From assembly GCF_900114355.1 (NCBI RefSeq), contig NZ_FOSS01000001.1, forward strand, positions 248,001-312,000: 64,000 bases of DNA, written 5' to 3'. This DNA is from Lysobacter sp. cf310 (GTDB taxonomy: Bacteria; Pseudomonadota; Gammaproteobacteria; Xanthomonadales; Xanthomonadaceae). Under the pieces are notes generated by a model. The model did no database searches and had not been told where the DNA came from. It saw only the letters and a list, made by a program, of their open reading frames with translations. Made by a program: the position numbers and the translations under genes. Positions within the stretch are counted from its first letter, which is position 1, and every line of letters starts with the position of its first letter. Positions 511 through 35,471 of the stretch are shown here, piece after piece.

Positions 511-1050
511 ATGGCCGCACACCGAATAGCGCTGATCCTCGCCAGCCTGATCGCGGGTTGCTCGGGCAACGTACGCCCGATCACGCCCGTGGCCTCGGTC
601 GATCTGGATCGGTTCATGGGCGACTGGTACGTGATCGCCCACATTCCCTCGCGCCCGGAGCGCGAGGCTTACAACGCCATCGAGAACTACCGGCGCGCGG
701 ACGACGGCAAGATCCTGACCCGCTTCCGCTACCGCGACGGCGGGTTCGATCGCCCCGTCGAGACCATGCATCCGGTCGGCACGGTCAAGGCCGGCACCGG
801 CAACGCGGTCTGGGGCATGCAGTTCGTCTGGCCGATCCAGGCCGAATACGTGGTCGTCTACCTGAGCCCGGACTACTCCCAGACCATCATCGGCCGCAGC
901 AAGCGCGACTACGCCTGGATCATGGCGCGCACCCCCACCCTGTCCGAGCCGGACTACCAGCGCCACCTCGCGCGTCTGCGCGCGCTGGGCTACTCCCTCG
1001 ACGGGCTGCGCAAAGTGCCGCAGGCCTGGCCGGAGCCGGCTGCGCCCTGA
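511..1050 (+). CDS. Lipocalin family outer-membrane lipoprotein (Blc-like)
   Basis: A 179-residue protein. The start chosen here is the ATG that gives a lipoprotein signal peptide (residues 1-16) ending in LIAG before Cys17. The lipocalin signature G-D-W (37-39) follows in FMGDWYVIAHIP, and the later YVVVYLSPDYSQTIIGRS and DYAWIMAR strands match bacterial lipocalins such as Blc, which bind lysophospholipids or fatty acids at the inner face of the outer membrane. The length is typical. A longer open frame upstream overlaps the methyltransferase and is not used. Placement directly behind a lipid-methyltransferase-like gene fits a role in membrane lipid handling, which is an inference. Confidence 0.88.
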   Translation: MAAHRIALILASLIAGCSGNVRPITPVASVDLDRFMGDWYVIAHIPSRPEREAYNAIENYRRADDGKILTRFRYRDGGFDRPVETMHPVGTVKAGTGNAVWGMQFVWPIQAEYVVVYLSPDYSQTIIGRSKRDYAWIMARTPTLSEPDYQRHLARLRALGYSLDGLRKVPQAWPEPAAP

Positions 1051-1073
1051 GCCCGCGCCTGCGGACAAAAAAA

Positions 1074-1094
1074 GGCCCGGCGAAGGCCGGGCCC
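1074..1094 (-). terminator. Hairpin with T-run on the minus strand
   Basis: A GGCCCGG / CCGGGCC stem around a short loop is preceded on the plus strand by seven A residues, which makes a hairpin followed by a T-run on the minus strand. It lies between the convergent lipocalin and subtilase genes and probably backs up the terminator at 1217-1250. Confidence 0.5.
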
Positions 1095-1216
1095 AGTCTC
1101 GCCGGAACGGCGAGGGGGATGCGGTGAGATCCACACCTGCTCTGAAGGGGCCAACGCGGCTGGCGGCCGCGGGCGGCCAAGTCGCGCCGGAAAGCGTGCG
1201 ACGGGACGGCCCGGGC

Positions 1217-1250
1217 AAAAAAATGGGCATCCGCTACGACCCGGATGCCC
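1217..1250 (-). terminator. Rho-independent terminator of the subtilase gene
   Basis: A perfect 9 bp stem, GGGCATCCG / CGGATGCCC (1225-1233 with 1242-1250), is followed on the minus strand by seven T residues. It lies about 90 bp past the stop codon of the minus-strand subtilase gene. Confidence 0.75.
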
Positions 1251-1337
1251 CCGATGAAATCGGCGGAGAGTGCGAGTGGGAGAGAGCGTCGCTCGCAGGC
1301 GTTCCCAGGCCGTCCTTGGCCGGGAAAGCCGGGGGAT

Positions 1338-2744
1338 TCAGTAGCCCTGCGCGACCTGCGCGGCCTCGTAAGCATCGACATGGCCGCTGCCGACCTCGTA
1401 GGGCAGCCGCCCGGGCATGGGATTGGCGGTGGCGGTGAGGATCTGTTTGACCTCGGCCGGGTTCAGGGACGGATTGGCCTCCAGCAGCAGGGCGACGATG
1501 CCGGCCACGTGCGGGGTGGCCATCGAAGTACCGCTCATGTGGGTATAGGACAGGGCCCTGGCGCCCAGCGACAGGTCCTGCTGCACGGCCAGCAGCGGCA
1601 GCACGCCGGTCAGCGCGCGCGTGGAGACGATGTCCACGCCGGTGGCGACGATGCTGGGCTGGTTGGTGTAGGTCCAGCTCGCCCCGTCGGGCATGGTGAA
1701 GCTGGCGCTTTCGCCCGGATTGCCGCGCGAGGAGAAGTCGGCCAGGGTGCCGTCCTTGTTGCCGGCGCCGACCGAGATCACCCACGGCGCCTGCGCGTAG
1801 GGGTTGTGGGTGTTGGCGCCGGGGCCGTCGTTGCCGGCCGCGAACACGCTGACGATGCCGCGCTTGTAGGCCTCGTAGCTGGCCACGTTGACCGGATCGG
1901 TGGGGTCGAAGGCGCCCGAGGTGCCCCAGGAATTGGAGATCACCCGGATCGGCGAGGCGAAGCTGTTCTGCTTGCTGATCGCGTAGTCGTAACCGCCGAC
2001 CGCGTCCAGGATCGAGATGACCGCGCCGGAGCCGTAGCCGACCAGATCGGCGCCGGTGGCGACGCCGCGGTACAGGCCGGCCGACTGCGCGCCGCTGCCG
2101 CCGACGGTGCCGGCGCAGTGGGTGCCGTGGCCGGAGCCCAGGTCGGTGTTGAGCTGGTTCTCCAGCACCACCACCGGCAGGAAGTCGAGCACCGAATGCA
2201 GATTGGTCAGGGCCTGCACGTTCTGGACCACGCGCACGCCGTACTTGAGATCGGCGTGGGTGGCGTCGATGCCGGAGTCGTTGATCATCACCGTCACCCC
2301 GCGCCCGGTGTAGGGCGTGGTGCGGCCGAAATCGCCGGGATTGGCCTGGACCCGGTTGACCCCGGACAGCTCGCGCGCCTCCTGGTTGTAGTACTCCAGA
2401 TTGCGATTGAGGTGGATCGCGCGCACATCGCTGCGCTGGGCCAGGGCGCGGATCTGCGCCGGCGTGGCCAGGGCGCCCGCGACCGGCAGGTTGCGCATGC
2501 TGATGCCCTTGCCGATGCCGAGCGTGCGCAGGGCCTGCAACTGGGTGCTGCGCACCGGGCCCTGCTGGTCGTAGGAGACCACGACCTCGAGCTTGTCCAG
2601 CGCGGCGGCGGTCCCGAGCACCTTGTTCAGGGCCGCGTCGATATGGGCGCCGGCCAGGGCCATGCCGCTGGCCATCATGCCTACGGCCAGGGCGGACAGC
2701 TTGAGGAAGTTGCGGCGGTTGCGGTGCATGCGGTGGATCTCCAT
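1338..2744 (-). CDS. Secreted S8 family (subtilisin-like) serine peptidase with Tat-type signal
   Basis: A 468-residue subtilase. The N-terminus has a twin-arginine motif (R10-R11-N-F-L-K) and a hydrophobic stretch ending in ALA at about residue 31, so export by Tat is likely. Residues 50-118 look like an I9-type inhibitory propeptide. The catalytic triad is visible: D156 in NDSGID, H206 in GSGHGTH, and S407 in SGTSMATPHVAG. The oxyanion-hole region SNSWGT and an AAGNDG segment are also present. It should be an extracellular or periplasmic endopeptidase. There is no C-terminal P-domain, PPC domain or pilus-like tail. The gene is monocistronic, with its own terminator. Start: the first ATG gives a long n-region; an internal ATG at 2729 is an alternative. 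Confidence 0.92.
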   Translation of the reverse strand: MEIHRMHRNRRNFLKLSALAVGMMASGMALAGAHIDAALNKVLGTAAALDKLEVVVSYDQQGPVRSTQLQALRTLGIGKGISMRNLPVAGALATPAQIRALAQRSDVRAIHLNRNLEYYNQEARELSGVNRVQANPGDFGRTTPYTGRGVTVMINDSGIDATHADLKYGVRVVQNVQALTNLHSVLDFLPVVVLENQLNTDLGSGHGTHCAGTVGGSGAQSAGLYRGVATGADLVGYGSGAVISILDAVGGYDYAISKQNSFASPIRVISNSWGTSGAFDPTDPVNVASYEAYKRGIVSVFAAGNDGPGANTHNPYAQAPWVISVGAGNKDGTLADFSSRGNPGESASFTMPDGASWTYTNQPSIVATGVDIVSTRALTGVLPLLAVQQDLSLGARALSYTHMSGTSMATPHVAGIVALLLEANPSLNPAEVKQILTATANPMPGRLPYEVGSGHVDAYEAAQVAQGY

Positions 2745-2954
2745 GAATGCGGCAGGTCGGCGCCGGTCTACGCCGGCATCGGCACCATCGCCGGCCGGCT
2801 CAGGGTCCAGCCATCCGGATGAACGCCCAAAGCGCCTGGGGGAAAATCCCTAGAGACTTGAAGGGGCCACGCGGAGTACGCTCGGCGCATGCCGTTGCTC
2901 TGTCTGCGCCCACGGCGGACGCCGACCTGGGCCACGGTCCACGGGGGGTGTGAC

Positions 2955-3788
2955 ATGGCGAAGTGGGCGTGGAGCGCGCTGCTGACGGCAGTGCTGTGGT
3001 GCGGCGGGGGCCCGGCGAACGCGCAATCGCTGCCGGTGCAGGTCACCATCTCGGGCAACGAGGCCAGCGCCTACGTCGGCCTGCCCGGTCTGACCATCCT
3101 GGACCTGAGCCTGGAATTCGAGAACGCCCAGGGCCTCACGGCGAACAGCCTGGGCATCGGCGCCAAAGTGGTCAGCCCGCTCAATCCGCTGCTGCAGGGG
3201 CGGTTGCCCAATCTCAATCTGACCTCGCTGACCGCGGCCCTGCCGGTGCTGATCACGATCCAGCCGCCGGCCAGCGGCGGCCTGCGCTTCCAGGGCACCG
3301 GCCGCTTCGAACTGCATACCCATGTCCTGCCCTATGCGCTGGGCAGTTCGCTGCGCGTGTTCAAGGCGCCGCTGGGCGGGCAGTTCCAGGACATCACCGA
3401 AGAGATCGCCCAGGGCAGCGTGCGCGCGCGCGGCCGCTACGGCGGTTTCTCGCAGTTCCTGATCCTGATCGACCTGCGCCCCACCGGCATGGTCATCGAC
3501 GAGAAGATCCTGCGCCTGCGCAACCGCGTGGCCGGCCTGCCGGTCGCCGAGCGCCCGGCCTTCACCGCCCTGCTCGACGACACCGAGGCGGCGCTGGACA
3601 TCGACGACTACCCGGCCGCGCTGACCGCGATCGACGCCATCCGCGCGCGCGCCCAGGCCCGCGCCGGCACCTATCTGGGCAATGAGTGGCGTGCCGATCT
3701 GAGCACGGTCAACGACGCCGGCGAGTTGGTCGCTGGCGCCTCGACCCTGCGCTTCAGCGTGATCTACCAGCGCGACTACGGACAGTGA
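2955..3788 (+). CDS. Secreted protein of unknown function
   Basis: A 277-residue protein. The ATG at 2955 is chosen because it follows a G-rich stretch and starts a clean signal peptide (MAKWAWSALL...; cleavage likely after ANA, about residue 24). An upstream GTG/ATG in the same frame would add 22 polar residues in front of the signal. The mature part is mostly short beta-like segments (residues 25-190) followed by a helical, TPR-like segment with alternating Ala and acidic residues (about 205-245). I do not recognise the family. It lies alone between the divergent subtilase and the FHA signalling block. Confidence 0.7.
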   Translation: MAKWAWSALLTAVLWCGGGPANAQSLPVQVTISGNEASAYVGLPGLTILDLSLEFENAQGLTANSLGIGAKVVSPLNPLLQGRLPNLNLTSLTAALPVLITIQPPASGGLRFQGTGRFELHTHVLPYALGSSLRVFKAPLGGQFQDITEEIAQGSVRARGRYGGFSQFLILIDLRPTGMVIDEKILRLRNRVAGLPVAERPAFTALLDDTEAALDIDDYPAALTAIDAIRARAQARAGTYLGNEWRADLSTVNDAGELVAGASTLRFSVIYQRDYGQ

Positions 3789-3832
3789 TGCGCATTCGCT
3801 ATAGGGCCGCCGGCCGCGCTTAAGATGCGCCC

Positions 3833-4711
3833 ATGCCGGCGCGCCTGATCGCTTACCCGCCCGAAACCGCAGCGGTCACGCGCTGGATCGCGGCGGGCGG
3901 GCGTCTGCGCATCGGCCGCGCCGCCGATTGCGACCTGGTGCTGGAACACCCGTCGGTCTCGCGCGCCCACGCCGAACTCAGCCACGACGGCCAGCGCTGG
4001 CAGCTGCGCGATCTGGGCAGCAAGAACGGCAGCTACATCGACGGCATCGCGGTCGAGGACTCGGCGGCCCTGGCGGTGCCGTCCTGGCTGCGCTTCGGCG
4101 ATGTGCACTGCGACTTCGCCGAGTTCAACGAGGCCCAGAGCAACGGCCTGCGCCTGCGCCAGCAGCAACGCCGCGATTTCTCGCTCGCGCTCACGCGCCG
4201 GGTCGAGGCCGAATCCGACCACGCCCGCCTGCCCGAGGAAGTGCTGCGCGGCGTGGTCGAGCTGGCCGACTGCAGCCGCGGCTTCCTGCTGCTGGCCAGC
4301 GGCGGCGACTACGCCGTGCGCGCCAGCGTCGAGCTGGACCCGGCCGCGCTGCGCGCGCGGGTGTTCTCCGGCAGCGTCGGCGCGGTCGAACGCGCGCTCG
4401 CCCAGCGCCAGCCGGTGGTGGTCAACGAGGTCGCGCGCAGCGACTGGGCGGCCGAGCGCGCTTCGATCGTCGACAGCGGCCTGAAAAGCCTGGTCTGCCT
4501 GCCCCTGCTGGACGGCCCGCGCACCCTGGGCGCGATCTACGCCGACCGCCGCACCCCGGGCGAGCCGATCACCCAGTTCGACCTGGAGCTGCTCAGCGCC
4601 TTCGCCGAGAGCGCCGCCCTGTGGCTGCTCGCGCGCAGCGCCGTGGAGGCATTGGACGATGCCCCGCGTTGGAGCACGATAGTGGCGGGCCCGCACGGCA
4701 GCACACCATGA
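3833..4711 (+). CDS. FHA and GAF domain signalling protein
   Basis: A 292-residue cytoplasmic protein. Residues 20-95 form an FHA domain, a phosphothreonine-binding module, with the signature GR..DCD, SVSRAHAEL and GSKNGSYIDG. Residues 120-280 read as a GAF domain (SLVCLPLLDG....GAIYADRR). The stop overlaps the start of the Ser/Thr kinase gene (ATGA, 4708-4711), so the two are translationally coupled. The FHA domain would be expected to read the phosphothreonine state of the kinase or of its targets, and the GAF domain to sense a small ligand. Both statements are inferences from the domain families and the operon. Confidence 0.9.
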   Translation: MPARLIAYPPETAAVTRWIAAGGRLRIGRAADCDLVLEHPSVSRAHAELSHDGQRWQLRDLGSKNGSYIDGIAVEDSAALAVPSWLRFGDVHCDFAEFNEAQSNGLRLRQQQRRDFSLALTRRVEAESDHARLPEEVLRGVVELADCSRGFLLLASGGDYAVRASVELDPAALRARVFSGSVGAVERALAQRQPVVVNEVARSDWAAERASIVDSGLKSLVCLPLLDGPRTLGAIYADRRTPGEPITQFDLELLSAFAESAALWLLARSAVEALDDAPRWSTIVAGPHGSTP

Positions 4712-33763: not shown

Positions 33764-33840
33764 GCCCGAATAGCTCAGCCGGTTAGAGCACTTGACTGTT
33801 AATCAGGGGGTCGTTGGTTCGAGTCCAACTTCGGGCGCCA
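33764..33840 (+). tRNA. tRNA-Asn (GTT), integration site of a mini-island
   Basis: A 77 nt cloverleaf. GCCCGAA pairs with TTCGGGC, followed by G and encoded CCA. The loop has anticodon GTT, reading AAC/AAU. The last 48 nt (33793-33840) are repeated perfectly at 35423-35470, so the 3' half now present here was brought in or duplicated by integration of the 1.6 kb element. The gene remains complete and should be functional. Confidence 0.97.
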
Positions 33841-33841
33841 A
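33793..33841 (+). repeat. Left attachment repeat (attL) in the tRNA-Asn 3' end
   Basis: 49 bp including the anticodon arm end, T arm, acceptor 3' strand, CCA and one more A are identical to 35423-35471. The repeats bound a 1.6 kb low-GC segment, the standard trace of site-specific integration into a tRNA gene. Confidence 0.85.
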
Positions 33842-33845
33842 AACC

Positions 33846-33880
33846 AAAGGCTTGCGATTCGATCGCAGGCCTTTCTTTTT
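33846..33880 (+). terminator. Island-borne terminator of tRNA-Asn
   Basis: AAAGGCTTGCGAT / ATCGCAGGCCTTT forms a 13 bp stem with one G-T pair and a 3 nt loop, followed by CTTTTT. It lies inside the island, 6 bp after the tRNA, and replaces the original terminator now stranded at 35488-35515. Confidence 0.85.
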
Positions 33881-33966
33881 AGGTGCACCTAAAATAGGTT
33901 TTCCTAGGTTGACAACGTCCTTCATTGTTGTCCGTCGGTTTGAGCTGTCTTGCTAGTCACACAGCG

Positions 33967-34554
33967 TCACAGACCCACCATGCGATTCCAGTCGTTTACG
34001 TACATCTCGATTCTCTGAAACTCGGCGGACAGAAGGAATCTGTTGTGCGCGATGAAATTTCGCGCGCGCTCAAGCTCATCTAGGCGTTGTTTCAACCAAT
34101 GCTGGGTGGGGACAAGATCTGAAAAGTCTTCCCAATTCGCGACGATGATGTCCGCAAGATGTCCGAACTGCACGAAGCCGAGCAGATCCGCGCTCTGACC
34201 TTCGAGCCATGAATTTTCCTGCGCGTCCTTTTGCCGACCAGCAGCAAATTCCTGAACCTTCTTCGGCACTCTTGAAATCCACCACCCTGCGCCATGACGC
34301 TCAAATAAGCGCTCTGTGATGAGGGCGCGCACCGAATTTTCAAAGCAGTAAAGAAGCGAGTACAAGCGCGCCATGCGCATCGCCTCACCCCGCAAGTCGA
34401 CACCAAACGGCGTAAGAGTTTCAGCAAATAGCTCACGCTCGGCATCTTCCGTGTTAGCGCCCACTCGAATACCAGCAGCACGAAATCGATCGGCTTCGGC
34501 TTCGAACATCAGTCCACGGAAAAGCCAATCACGCAGATCCTTGGCTTCAATCAT
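33967..34554 (-). CDS. Swt1-type HEPN domain protein, putative ribonuclease
   Basis: A 195-residue protein. Residues 60-185 read as a Swt1-family HEPN domain: LLYCFENSVRALITERL and GAGWWISRVPKKV, then ERARNFIAHNR with R165-N166-x3-H170. That is the R-x4-6-H motif (with a polar residue after Arg) that forms the active site of HEPN ribonucleases in toxins and defence systems. The gene starts 8 nt inside the end of the DUF5343 gene, so the two are translationally coupled. Its base composition (about 50 % GC) is far from that of the flanks. The function is inferred: an RNA-cleaving effector controlled by, or acting with, the DUF5343 protein. Confidence 0.8.
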   Translation of the reverse strand: MIEAKDLRDWLFRGLMFEAEADRFRAAGIRVGANTEDAERELFAETLTPFGVDLRGEAMRMARLYSLLYCFENSVRALITERLFERHGAGWWISRVPKKVQEFAAGRQKDAQENSWLEGQSADLLGFVQFGHLADIIVANWEDFSDLVPTQHWLKQRLDELERARNFIAHNRFLLSAEFQRIEMYVNDWNRMVGL

Positions 34555-35170
34555 CGAGCAGATGCTCCTTCAATGATTTGAATATTGCGTTATAGACCTC
34601 GACATCTTTCGTGGCAGGAAGGTGTATCTCGATGTTGTATCGCAAGCCATTGAAATGTAGCGGATGCGCCGAAGCAGCTCGCTCCGACTTTGGGGCCTCT
34701 TGAATAGGCTCATTGGCAGCCGAAGCCGTTTTATGCTTTGAATGCCCCACCGAGCTGGATATGTCAGCCAACTTCAACAGGTTCAAGAAGGTAGAAGCTT
34801 GCCGTTCTGCTACGACGTCCGAGACATTGTGCGCCGACTTGAATCGACCAATGATTGCCTGGCGGTCGGAGTCAGAGAGATTTTCATTGATATGGAAGAG
34901 GTCTTCATACGCTTCCCGAAGAGCTTGACCCAGCACTTGCTTCGAACGCGATTTGTCTCTGTAATCGAGATATCGTTTGGTAGGCGATCCATCCGCTGTC
35001 AAGAAGCCGAGATCCTTAAGGACCGGCAGAACTCCTTGATCGTTGCTGCTCTTGAAACCAATGCTCTTTAGATGAGCTACGGTGAACTTGTCCGGCGCCG
35101 TGCCATCAATAATCTTCTGCATTATTGCGGGAAGATTCTTCACGCTCGTCATATAGCGACTAGAGAGCAT
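34547..35170 (-). CDS. DUF5343 domain protein, partner of the HEPN protein
   Basis: A 207-residue protein. Residues 8-138 match DUF5343 (LPAIMQKIIDGTAPDKFTVAHLKSIGFKS, VLPVLKDLGFLTADGSPTKRY, ALREAYEDLFHINENLSD), whose first half looks like a winged helix. A low-complexity linker (140-168) leads to a small C-terminal module, NIEIHLPATKDVEVYNAIFKSLKEHLL, with a strand-helix pattern. The start ATG follows a strong AGGAGG site 7 nt away. It is co-transcribed with, and overlaps, the downstream HEPN gene. A sensor, antitoxin or adaptor role is an inference; no activity is known to me. Confidence 0.78.
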   Translation of the reverse strand: MLSSRYMTSVKNLPAIMQKIIDGTAPDKFTVAHLKSIGFKSSNDQGVLPVLKDLGFLTADGSPTKRYLDYRDKSRSKQVLGQALREAYEDLFHINENLSDSDRQAIIGRFKSAHNVSDVVAERQASTFLNLLKLADISSSVGHSKHKTASAANEPIQEAPKSERAASAHPLHFNGLRYNIEIHLPATKDVEVYNAIFKSLKEHLLDD

Positions 35171-35422
35171 CTACCGTCCTCCTGTGATCCAATCCGATGG
35201 AACACGTCCGTGAACACGGGTCTCATCCGATCAGTTGAGTACCCATCCAGTGCCCGTCGGCCATGCCGTCCCCTCTTCCTCGGCTGAGCCTATTGGAAGG
35301 AGTTTGCGGCAACAAGCCCACACCTAAAATTGCCTTGGCCACATAAGCAATTCAGTGGCTTATATGGCGCCTGCACATAAAATTAATAACCCTAACCATT
35401 TGATTTATATGCACTATAGAGC
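35171..35422. other. Right, AT-rich end of the mini-island
   Basis: This 250 bp stretch upstream of the DUF5343 gene must hold the operon promoter and the right end of the element. The last 80 bp before the repeat are about 35 % GC, in strong contrast to the chromosome. A CACCTAAAAT-like motif near 35322-35332 also occurs at the left end (33883-33893), and ATAAGC-/GCTTAT (35344-35367) is an inverted pair. These could be integrase arm or excisionase sites. No gene is seen. Confidence 0.5.
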
Positions 35423-35471
35423 TGACTGTTAATCAGGGGGTCGTTGGTTCGAGTCCAACTTCGGGCGCCAA
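35423..35471 (+). repeat. Right attachment repeat (attR), tRNA-Asn 3' remnant
   Basis: A perfect 49 bp copy of 33793-33841. It lacks the acceptor 5' strand and D arm, so it is not a tRNA gene but the original 3' end displaced by integration of the 1.6 kb element. Confidence 0.88.

Follow-up and report, generated by a model that had tools for sequence, protein, structure and literature searches.

A DUF5343–HEPN gene pair, a candidate toxin-antitoxin or defence unit, on an integrase-less mini-island at a tRNA-Asn gene

Within the HEPN superfamily, an Abi2/Swt1 clade with an Rx4-6H motif has been delineated (Anantharaman, 2013, PMC3710099). According to the parts of this account that deal with the clade and its relatives, catalysis is only partly conserved among the Swt1-like members, certain HEPN families are inactive, and DUF4145 is regarded as HEPN-related; fusions and R-M operons are described for the clade, and these parts mention no DUF5343 partner. 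Remote HEPN similarity is also reported, in the relevant part of a more recent study, for 6 of 21 validated systems (Vassallo, 2022, PMC9519451), which makes a defence role for a further HEPN protein plausible, but does not prove it. For the two proteins described here, the closest entry is PDC-M34 in PADLOC, itself a catalogue candidate, which comprises the same two proteins encoded by neighbouring genes; no paper was found in the open-access literature under the names DUF5343 or PDC-M34. On the side of mobile DNA, two kinds of element come close. CIMEs (cis-mobilizable elements) retain attL and attR and lack integration and transfer genes (PMC5704250, PMC3146451), and integron gene cassettes or CALINs hold bare cargo between recombination sites and are moved by an integrase located elsewhere (PMC11389934). 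Among the portions of the literature on integrase-less tRNA islands that we consulted, these CIME accounts were found, and no description of an island of the kind reported below.

In the window, as we call the whole 64-kb stretch of DNA analysed, two genes on the minus strand correspond to this catalogued candidate. By the list of open reading frames, the first (34547–35170) encodes a DUF5343 protein of 207 residues and the second (33967–34554) a Swt1-type HEPN protein of 195 residues. The two frames have 8 nt in common, and a minus-strand Shine-Dalgarno sequence, AGGAGG (CCTCCT on the plus strand, 35178–35183), stands 7 nt upstream of the ATG of the DUF5343 gene. GC content is 53.2% in the HEPN gene, 49.4% in the DUF5343 gene and 50.9% in the island around them, compared with 67.9% in the window. 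The preliminary description of this DNA had claimed exactly this anatomy of two overlapping minus-strand genes with a strong AGGAGG and a low GC content, and ORF coordinates, sequence and composition agree with it throughout. It had further stated that no characterized system with exactly this pair was known, which is not supported as worded: the DUF5343 protein matches PDC-M34A with 253.3 bits and the HEPN protein PDC-M34B with 229 bits, both over nearly their full length and from adjacent genes, so that the pair is already catalogued. Relative to this candidate, two points are new, the exchange of the partner that follows DUF5343 and the existence of integrase-less mini-islands.

The overlapping two-gene order with the DUF5343 gene in front is that of type II toxin-antitoxin architecture; in such operons, an antitoxin-then-toxin order with short overlaps is usual. 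We consider it fairly probable that the pair is a HEPN RNase held by DUF5343, acting in a toxin-antitoxin or abortive infection mode, on a minimal element that is probably moved by integrases in trans. The HEPN gene product would be a ribonuclease that cuts RNA by means of R165 and H170. The C-terminal module of the DUF5343 protein would probably contact HEPN and keep it inactive or gated, until the complex falls apart under phage infection or stress, whereupon the released HEPN would bring growth to a stop. The overlap of the genes would couple their translation, with the DUF5343 partner coming first, and an integrase from another island, acting in trans, would have inserted the 1.6-kb element and could excise it again.

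The nuclease prediction is grounded in the HEPN protein itself. It matches the Pfam family HEPN_Swt1 (PF18731) with 38.4 bits (cut-off 27.5) over residues 68–194 and carries R165-N166-F-I-A-H170, in line with the Swt1-type fold and the R165-N166-x3-H170 pattern that had been read from the sequence beforehand; like the described Abi2/Swt1 clade, it is thus Swt1-like with an Rx4-6H motif. Conservation of this motif, named in advance as a point on which the reading could fail, was then followed across the family: Arg165 and His170 are kept in 86 of the 86 aligned rows with residues at these positions. The alignment has 88 rows, two of which (L093, L133) are gapped at the motif, and a score filter excluded L137 and L138, whose HEPN ORFs are split or cut. 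On these grounds, the HEPN protein is a predicted RNase acting via R165 and H170. The partly conserved catalysis of the Swt1-like clade counts against our preferred reading, and the inactive HEPN families (PMC3710099, in the part cited above) leave room for a HEPN that is catalytically dead or engaged in house-keeping RNA processing; we consider this very improbable, given the invariance of both residues in the 86 rows and a patchy spread, with any match at all in only 12 of 297 genomes of the taxonomic family. In the tree, the window HEPN groups with Polaromonas and Acidovorax (support 100/99), apart from the other family members; phyla are intermingled, and the pair is spread across many bacterial phyla. 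Relatives of solved structure were sought by sequence, and none was convincing. Carriage by phages or plasmids was considered as well and set aside: the HEPN protein has no match in phages and a single weak match in plasmids, where the window DUF5343 and two other DUF5343 proteins have none.

The two genes belong together well beyond this genome. Relatives were collected in a contig scan with four DUF5343 proteins, of which the best 80 of 172 confirmed loci were retained. Among these best 80, the HEPN gene comes next downstream, in the same orientation, in 80, as it does in 3 of 3 viral loci, a proportion that is biased upward because the loci were selected via their DUF5343. With this reservation, both the two-gene unit proposed earlier and the conservation of its neighbourhood, for which the preliminary description had suggested a check, are borne out. 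In 71 of 89 pairs, the genes overlap by 8 nt (38 pairs), 4 nt (23) or 11 nt (10). Some frames look broken or cut, with HEPN split in L137 and at a contig end in L138, where DUF5343 is split as well, and gaps of 84–142 nt separate the listed ORFs in L090, L091 and L115. Across the 297 family genomes, PDC-M34B has 12 matches, all 7 strong ones accompanied by the partner and the 5 weaker ones (26–60 bits) without it. PDC-M34A has 10, namely the same 7, G071 and G079, which have other partners, and G183, whose 3.4-kb locus holds no downstream partner of at least 120 residues, a case that counts against the preferred reading. The neighbour scan, which covered 150 of 165 near and 105 of 116 far ORFs, revealed no third gene common to the surroundings of the pair, the commonest Pfam family occurring in 3 of the 150 near ORFs. 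With regard to a defence-island setting, the PADLOC models matched at E ≤ 1e-10 number 97 near and 24 far, a count of redundant models and not of proteins; among the models listed (25 of the 97), each is found in at most two proteins. As far as the scans reach, the unit therefore consists of two genes.

The first member of the pair, the DUF5343 protein, matches PF17278 with 144.8 bits (cut-off 27) over residues 6–140; this domain is followed by a variable linker (141–172) and then by some 35 residues (173–207) that form a C-terminal module. Conservation, computed for six segments, is highest in this module, with 3.32 bits per column as against 0.83 in the linker, which bears out the separate C-terminal module proposed earlier. 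The module recurs in operons with other second genes. In G071, a DUF5343 gene with a divergent tail precedes a gene for a DUF4145-like protein (21.5 bits, just below the cut-off of 23.1) with a 4-nt overlap, and in G079 a DUF5343 gene precedes one for a Hypoth_Ymh protein (98.1 bits) with a 17-nt overlap. The latter partner (operon of G079, locus L055) matches PD-Lambda-3_B of PADLOC with 44.0 bits and Aga_HEPN with 35.9 bits and so resembles the HEPN of PD-lambda-3 and of short-Argonaute-associated systems, whereas the window HEPN has no such match. In the loci L063, L208, L209 and L210, DUF5343 with its tail precedes a DUF4145-like protein; the second proteins of L208, L210 and L063 have no PADLOC match. 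In these partner-swapped operons, the DUF5343 proteins fit PDC-M34A, as in the window, but the second proteins give no match to PDC-M34B. While the DUF5343 tails can be aligned across the operons, the partners yield no convincing full-length alignment. Among 344 genomes of the phylum, DUF5343 is found above cut-off in 9, of which 5 (our own genome included) have a Swt1-HEPN, 3 a partner like that of G071 and 1 a fragment; the 3 partners were judged by eye, and one of their DUF5343 genes lies in two frames. Viral contigs gave no match with two divergent DUF5343 proteins as queries. As the domain and its C-terminal module also open operons in which other HEPN-like proteins follow, DUF5343 looks, as judged from sequence, like a common partner of HEPN-type proteins. 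As a side observation, the DUF4145-like operons of L063, L208, L209 and L210 are perhaps a sister of PDC-M34.

The same reuse bears on how the two proteins might work together. DUF5343 could be a sensor or activator instead of an inhibitor: HEPN would be idle alone and would be switched on by DUF5343, whose DUF5343 domain would perhaps bind phage nucleic acid or protein, in an abortive infection system without a classical antitoxin. The combination of DUF5343 and tail with different HEPN-like partners fits a sensor or adaptor no less than an inhibitor, and the pair figures in PADLOC as a candidate for defence. The partner-first order with short overlaps, on the other hand, is the usual type II antitoxin-toxin order, but the observations do not distinguish between the two readings. 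We regard the sensor as unlikely, and continue with DUF5343 as the protein that would hold the RNase in check.

The pair resides at a tRNA-Asn gene (anticodon GTT; 33764–33840, plus strand, located with ARAGORN), which served as the integration target. An exact direct repeat of 49 nt delimits the island, with the left att core (33793–33841, plus strand) in the 3' half of the tRNA and the right att core at 35423–35471 on the plus strand; the two cores are identical over all 49 nt and 1,630 bp apart. DUF5343 and HEPN are the sole genes between them, and the spacers from gene to att core measure 125 and 252 bp. In three relatives, G013, G012 and G010, the site is empty, and tRNA-Asn stands directly before gene d0 (93%, 67.5% and 59% identical, respectively), which in the window comes next after the right repeat; the sequence of G013 aligns with the window beyond the right repeat. 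The exact length of the repeat and the three empty sites exclude a chance repeat and establish site-specific insertion, and with it the tRNA-borne mini-island that had been proposed.

The ends of this island have a non-random layout. Behind the tRNA, the island supplies a terminator-like hairpin with a T-run (33846–33880, plus strand), recognized from the sequence and from a comparison of left ends, and this arrangement is common to other islands at tRNA-Asn. It is followed on the plus strand by the arm-like word CACCTAAAAT (33886–33895), with its inverted copy just before it. At the right end, also on the plus strand, the same word recurs at 35321–35330, near -148 from the att end, and is followed by a second arm-like word, GCACATAAAATT (35373–35384, near -95), and by TTGAT (35400–35404, -71), which is shared with some integrase-bearing islands and occurs 49 times on the plus strand of the window. 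CACCTAAAAT is present exactly twice in the window, near each island end and in the same orientation, where dinucleotide shuffles expect 0.00 copies; when the right end was plainly shuffled, a shared word as long as this arose in 14 of 1000 cases. From their position and repetition, we infer that the words serve an integrase as arm sites.

Similar ends are found in other islands at tRNA-Asn, which we call integrase-less when PF00589 has no match at E ≤ 0.001 in the interval and none among the scanned ORFs, a definition that refers to the tyrosine class. By a loose word pattern, arm-like words at -147 to -149 and -95 and TTGAT at -71/-72 are shared by the window island, the integrase-less G009_mini, G132_a and G165, and the integrase-bearing G009_big; by the same pattern, G094, which bears an integrase too, shows a word at -147 together with TTGAT at -71. 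G014_1 has a word at -146 and lacks TTGAT, and the layout was not matched in G014_2, G132_b, G213 and G003_big. Of the six other integrase-less islands, two (G014_2, G132_b) are thus without the layout and one (G014_1) has it in part, which speaks against our preferred reading. As the window island itself has an att layout resembling that of complete islands and no integrase, its insertion probably took place in trans.

Candidates for such a helper exist in the family, if not in this genome. PF00589 has just two matches in its 12 contigs, C6:911053 and C6:1275564; these are remote from the island (C6:281801–283470), and the size of both proteins suggests that they are Xer. G009 has a 407-aa integrase-like protein beside tRNA-Asn, of which our own genome has no relative, a point against the preferred reading; whole or partial matches to it are present in 51 of the 297 family genomes. 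The 407-aa integrases of G009 (22.2 bits) and G094 (22.8–24 bits) fall below the PF00589 cut-off, a further point against the preferred reading, and their relatives in G070 (28.0) and G016 (27.5) lie above it. Of 12 loci fetched with this integrase, five are at tRNA-Asn (G154, G239, G203, G061 and G094), and their left ends are laid out alike, with the terminator hairpin followed by words like GGGAAAATT, mostly in tandem. The left-end word of the window, sought as an exact pattern behind tRNA-Asn in 395 family genomes, was found in our own genome only, which likewise counts against the preferred reading.

These observations also invite the view that the island is a classical CIME: a larger integrative element would have decayed, losing integrase and transfer genes, and left this now immobile remnant. 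Such a view would be compatible with the preferred reading of the genes. Like a CIME (PMC5704250), the window island has kept attL and attR, visible in the 49-nt repeats and the empty sites, and is without integrase and transfer genes, its two genes filling it; such elements are on record (PMC5704250 and PMC3146451), and the genome lacks an integrase of the class likely to act as helper. However, the spacers of 125 and 252 bp are too short to accommodate relic genes, the two att cores agree at all 49 positions, and small integrase-less islands recur with varied cargo. The island further differs from a CIME in its length of 1.6 kb, its single intact operon, the similar small islands with other cargo and the lack of any sign of ICE descent. 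We therefore deem a remnant somewhat unlikely and continue to favour an element inserted in trans.

For this comparison, close same-strand att duplications that could be placed were opened as islands, and positions were obtained for 14 genomes; the 40-nt att core is present in 282 of the 297 family genomes. Genomes whose two copies sit on separate contigs, face in opposite directions or are widely spaced were left out (e.g. G001, G061, G114, G159, G169, G189, G239, G252 and G272), as were 42–44-kb intervals of G121 and G205, both of which hold integrase matches. A 13-kb interval in G213 has no PF00589 match. Six further integrase-less islands were found at tRNA-Asn in four relatives (G014, G009, G132 and G165); their scans omitted some small ORFs. 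One island of G014 (2,003 bp att to att) encodes a Trypsin_2 protein with a weak PADLOC match to RT-Protease_XI (23.9 bits), the other (1,680 bp, outer att shortened) a 280-aa protein that matches nothing in Pfam or PADLOC. The G009 island (3,484 bp; L025:5736–9172), whose outer att is a poorer copy, carries DarG (434 bits) and DarT (165 bits, both PADLOC) with an rve-type transposase gene between them. In G132, a 4,561-bp island has an attC-like word, two 385-aa ORFs with identical first 70 residues, presumably insertion sequences, and orphans; a second one of 1,599 bp, with different end repeats, has a methyltransferase with 61.3 bits to PADLOC mad2, which is probably a general methyltransferase match. 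The G165 island (2,177 bp; L182:1164–3293) has a gene for a CopG antitoxin (28.7 bits), an ORF that weakly matches BrnT (15.1 bits) and a gene for a P63C protein. Matched PADLOC pairs are thus present in 2 of the 7 integrase-less islands (PDC-M34 and DarTG), and a third has a toxin-antitoxin-like pair (CopG/BrnT-like). Integrases are borne by the islands of G290, G037, G220, G094, G247 and G070 and by the large islands of G003 and G009.

Three loci deserve mention for their arrangement: both integrase-less islands of G014 stand in tandem at tRNA-Asn (L015:1143–4790), as do the 4.6-kb and 1.6-kb islands of G132 (L184:1118–7230), and in G290 (L185, ~1020–4200) a 3.1-kb integrase island lies between two seemingly complete tRNA-Asn copies.

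More broadly, we tentatively put forward, as an idea somewhat less probable than its opposite, that the family has minimal 'tRNA cassettes' of 1.6–4.6 kb, with a complete attP layout, no integrase and one small toxin or defence operon each, which would be moved in trans by the integrases of larger islands at tRNA-Asn as a phage-integrase counterpart of integron cassettes, and that in these elements DUF5343, together with the module at its C-terminus, serves as a general partner controlling several HEPN-type effectors. If so, a defence candidate that is catalogued and, by the literature search, unstudied would become a general scheme of one partner with an exchangeable HEPN effector, for which a common docking tail of the DUF5343 partners is predicted. 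Single defence operons would travel as tiny integrase-less tRNA elements, and searches that start from integrases would miss them.

The tRNA gene is not the usual home of the pair itself. Of 89 related loci, some of which have short flanks, 4 have a tRNA or tmRNA no more than 1 kb away, and this proportion led us to discard the pair as a general tRNA-island system. From the earlier interpretation, then, the two-gene unit, the HEPN motif, the C-terminal module and the tRNA mini-island remain, and the statement that no such pair was known and tRNA islands as the usual setting are not supported. A second mini-island is present in L129, an alphaproteobacterial MAG contig, where the pair lies in an interval of ~2.65 kb at tRNA-Thr, bounded by a 52-nt exact repeat; beyond the pair, only short ORFs were seen in this island, for which domains were sought within the pooled neighbour scan.

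A third form of packaging is the integron cassette. In L057 (G173), the pair occupies a whole cassette and is flanked by two attC sites out of five copies that stand in a row; hairpin folding gave a z of -2.91 for one of the two copies tested and -0.35 for the other, and the genome has an integron integrase (484.6 bits) on a different contig. Sites were judged from sequence and integron integrases were sought in G173, G132, G000 and G014; a generic attC pattern missed most of the sites found by alignment and was excluded from the counts. Similar sequence on both flanks was found in 5 of the 84 loci with enough flank (of 89), being attC-like in L057, L070, L117 and L119 and partly so in L098; for most of the 89 loci, no repeat bounding the pair was found. 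By eye, attC-like ends were also recognized in L147; in L068, the nearest relative, one such site lies upstream and half of one downstream. The window element has a tRNA site as its att, and no attC was seen when the window island was read by eye, in contrast to those relatives of the pair that are cassettes; our own genome has no integron integrase above cut-off.

Bare two-gene packaging in a tRNA-Asn island, a tRNA-Thr island (L129) and integron cassettes supports a self-contained module. It could also mean that the pair is mainly an addiction unit, which stabilizes small mobile DNA such as islands and cassettes and has little defence value, since it rides on both and other tRNA-Asn mini-islands carry DarTG and a CopG/BrnT-like pair. 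DarTG, however, is itself reported to be anti-phage, which makes addiction and defence compatible, and most of the 89 loci show no bounding repeat; we hold a mere addiction role to be improbable, and a HEPN RNase restrained by DUF5343 remains the reading that we prefer. Lastly, in two Bacteroidota loci (L117 and L119), genes are arrayed with attC-like repeats of 110–140 nt between them, and the pair forms one element of each array.
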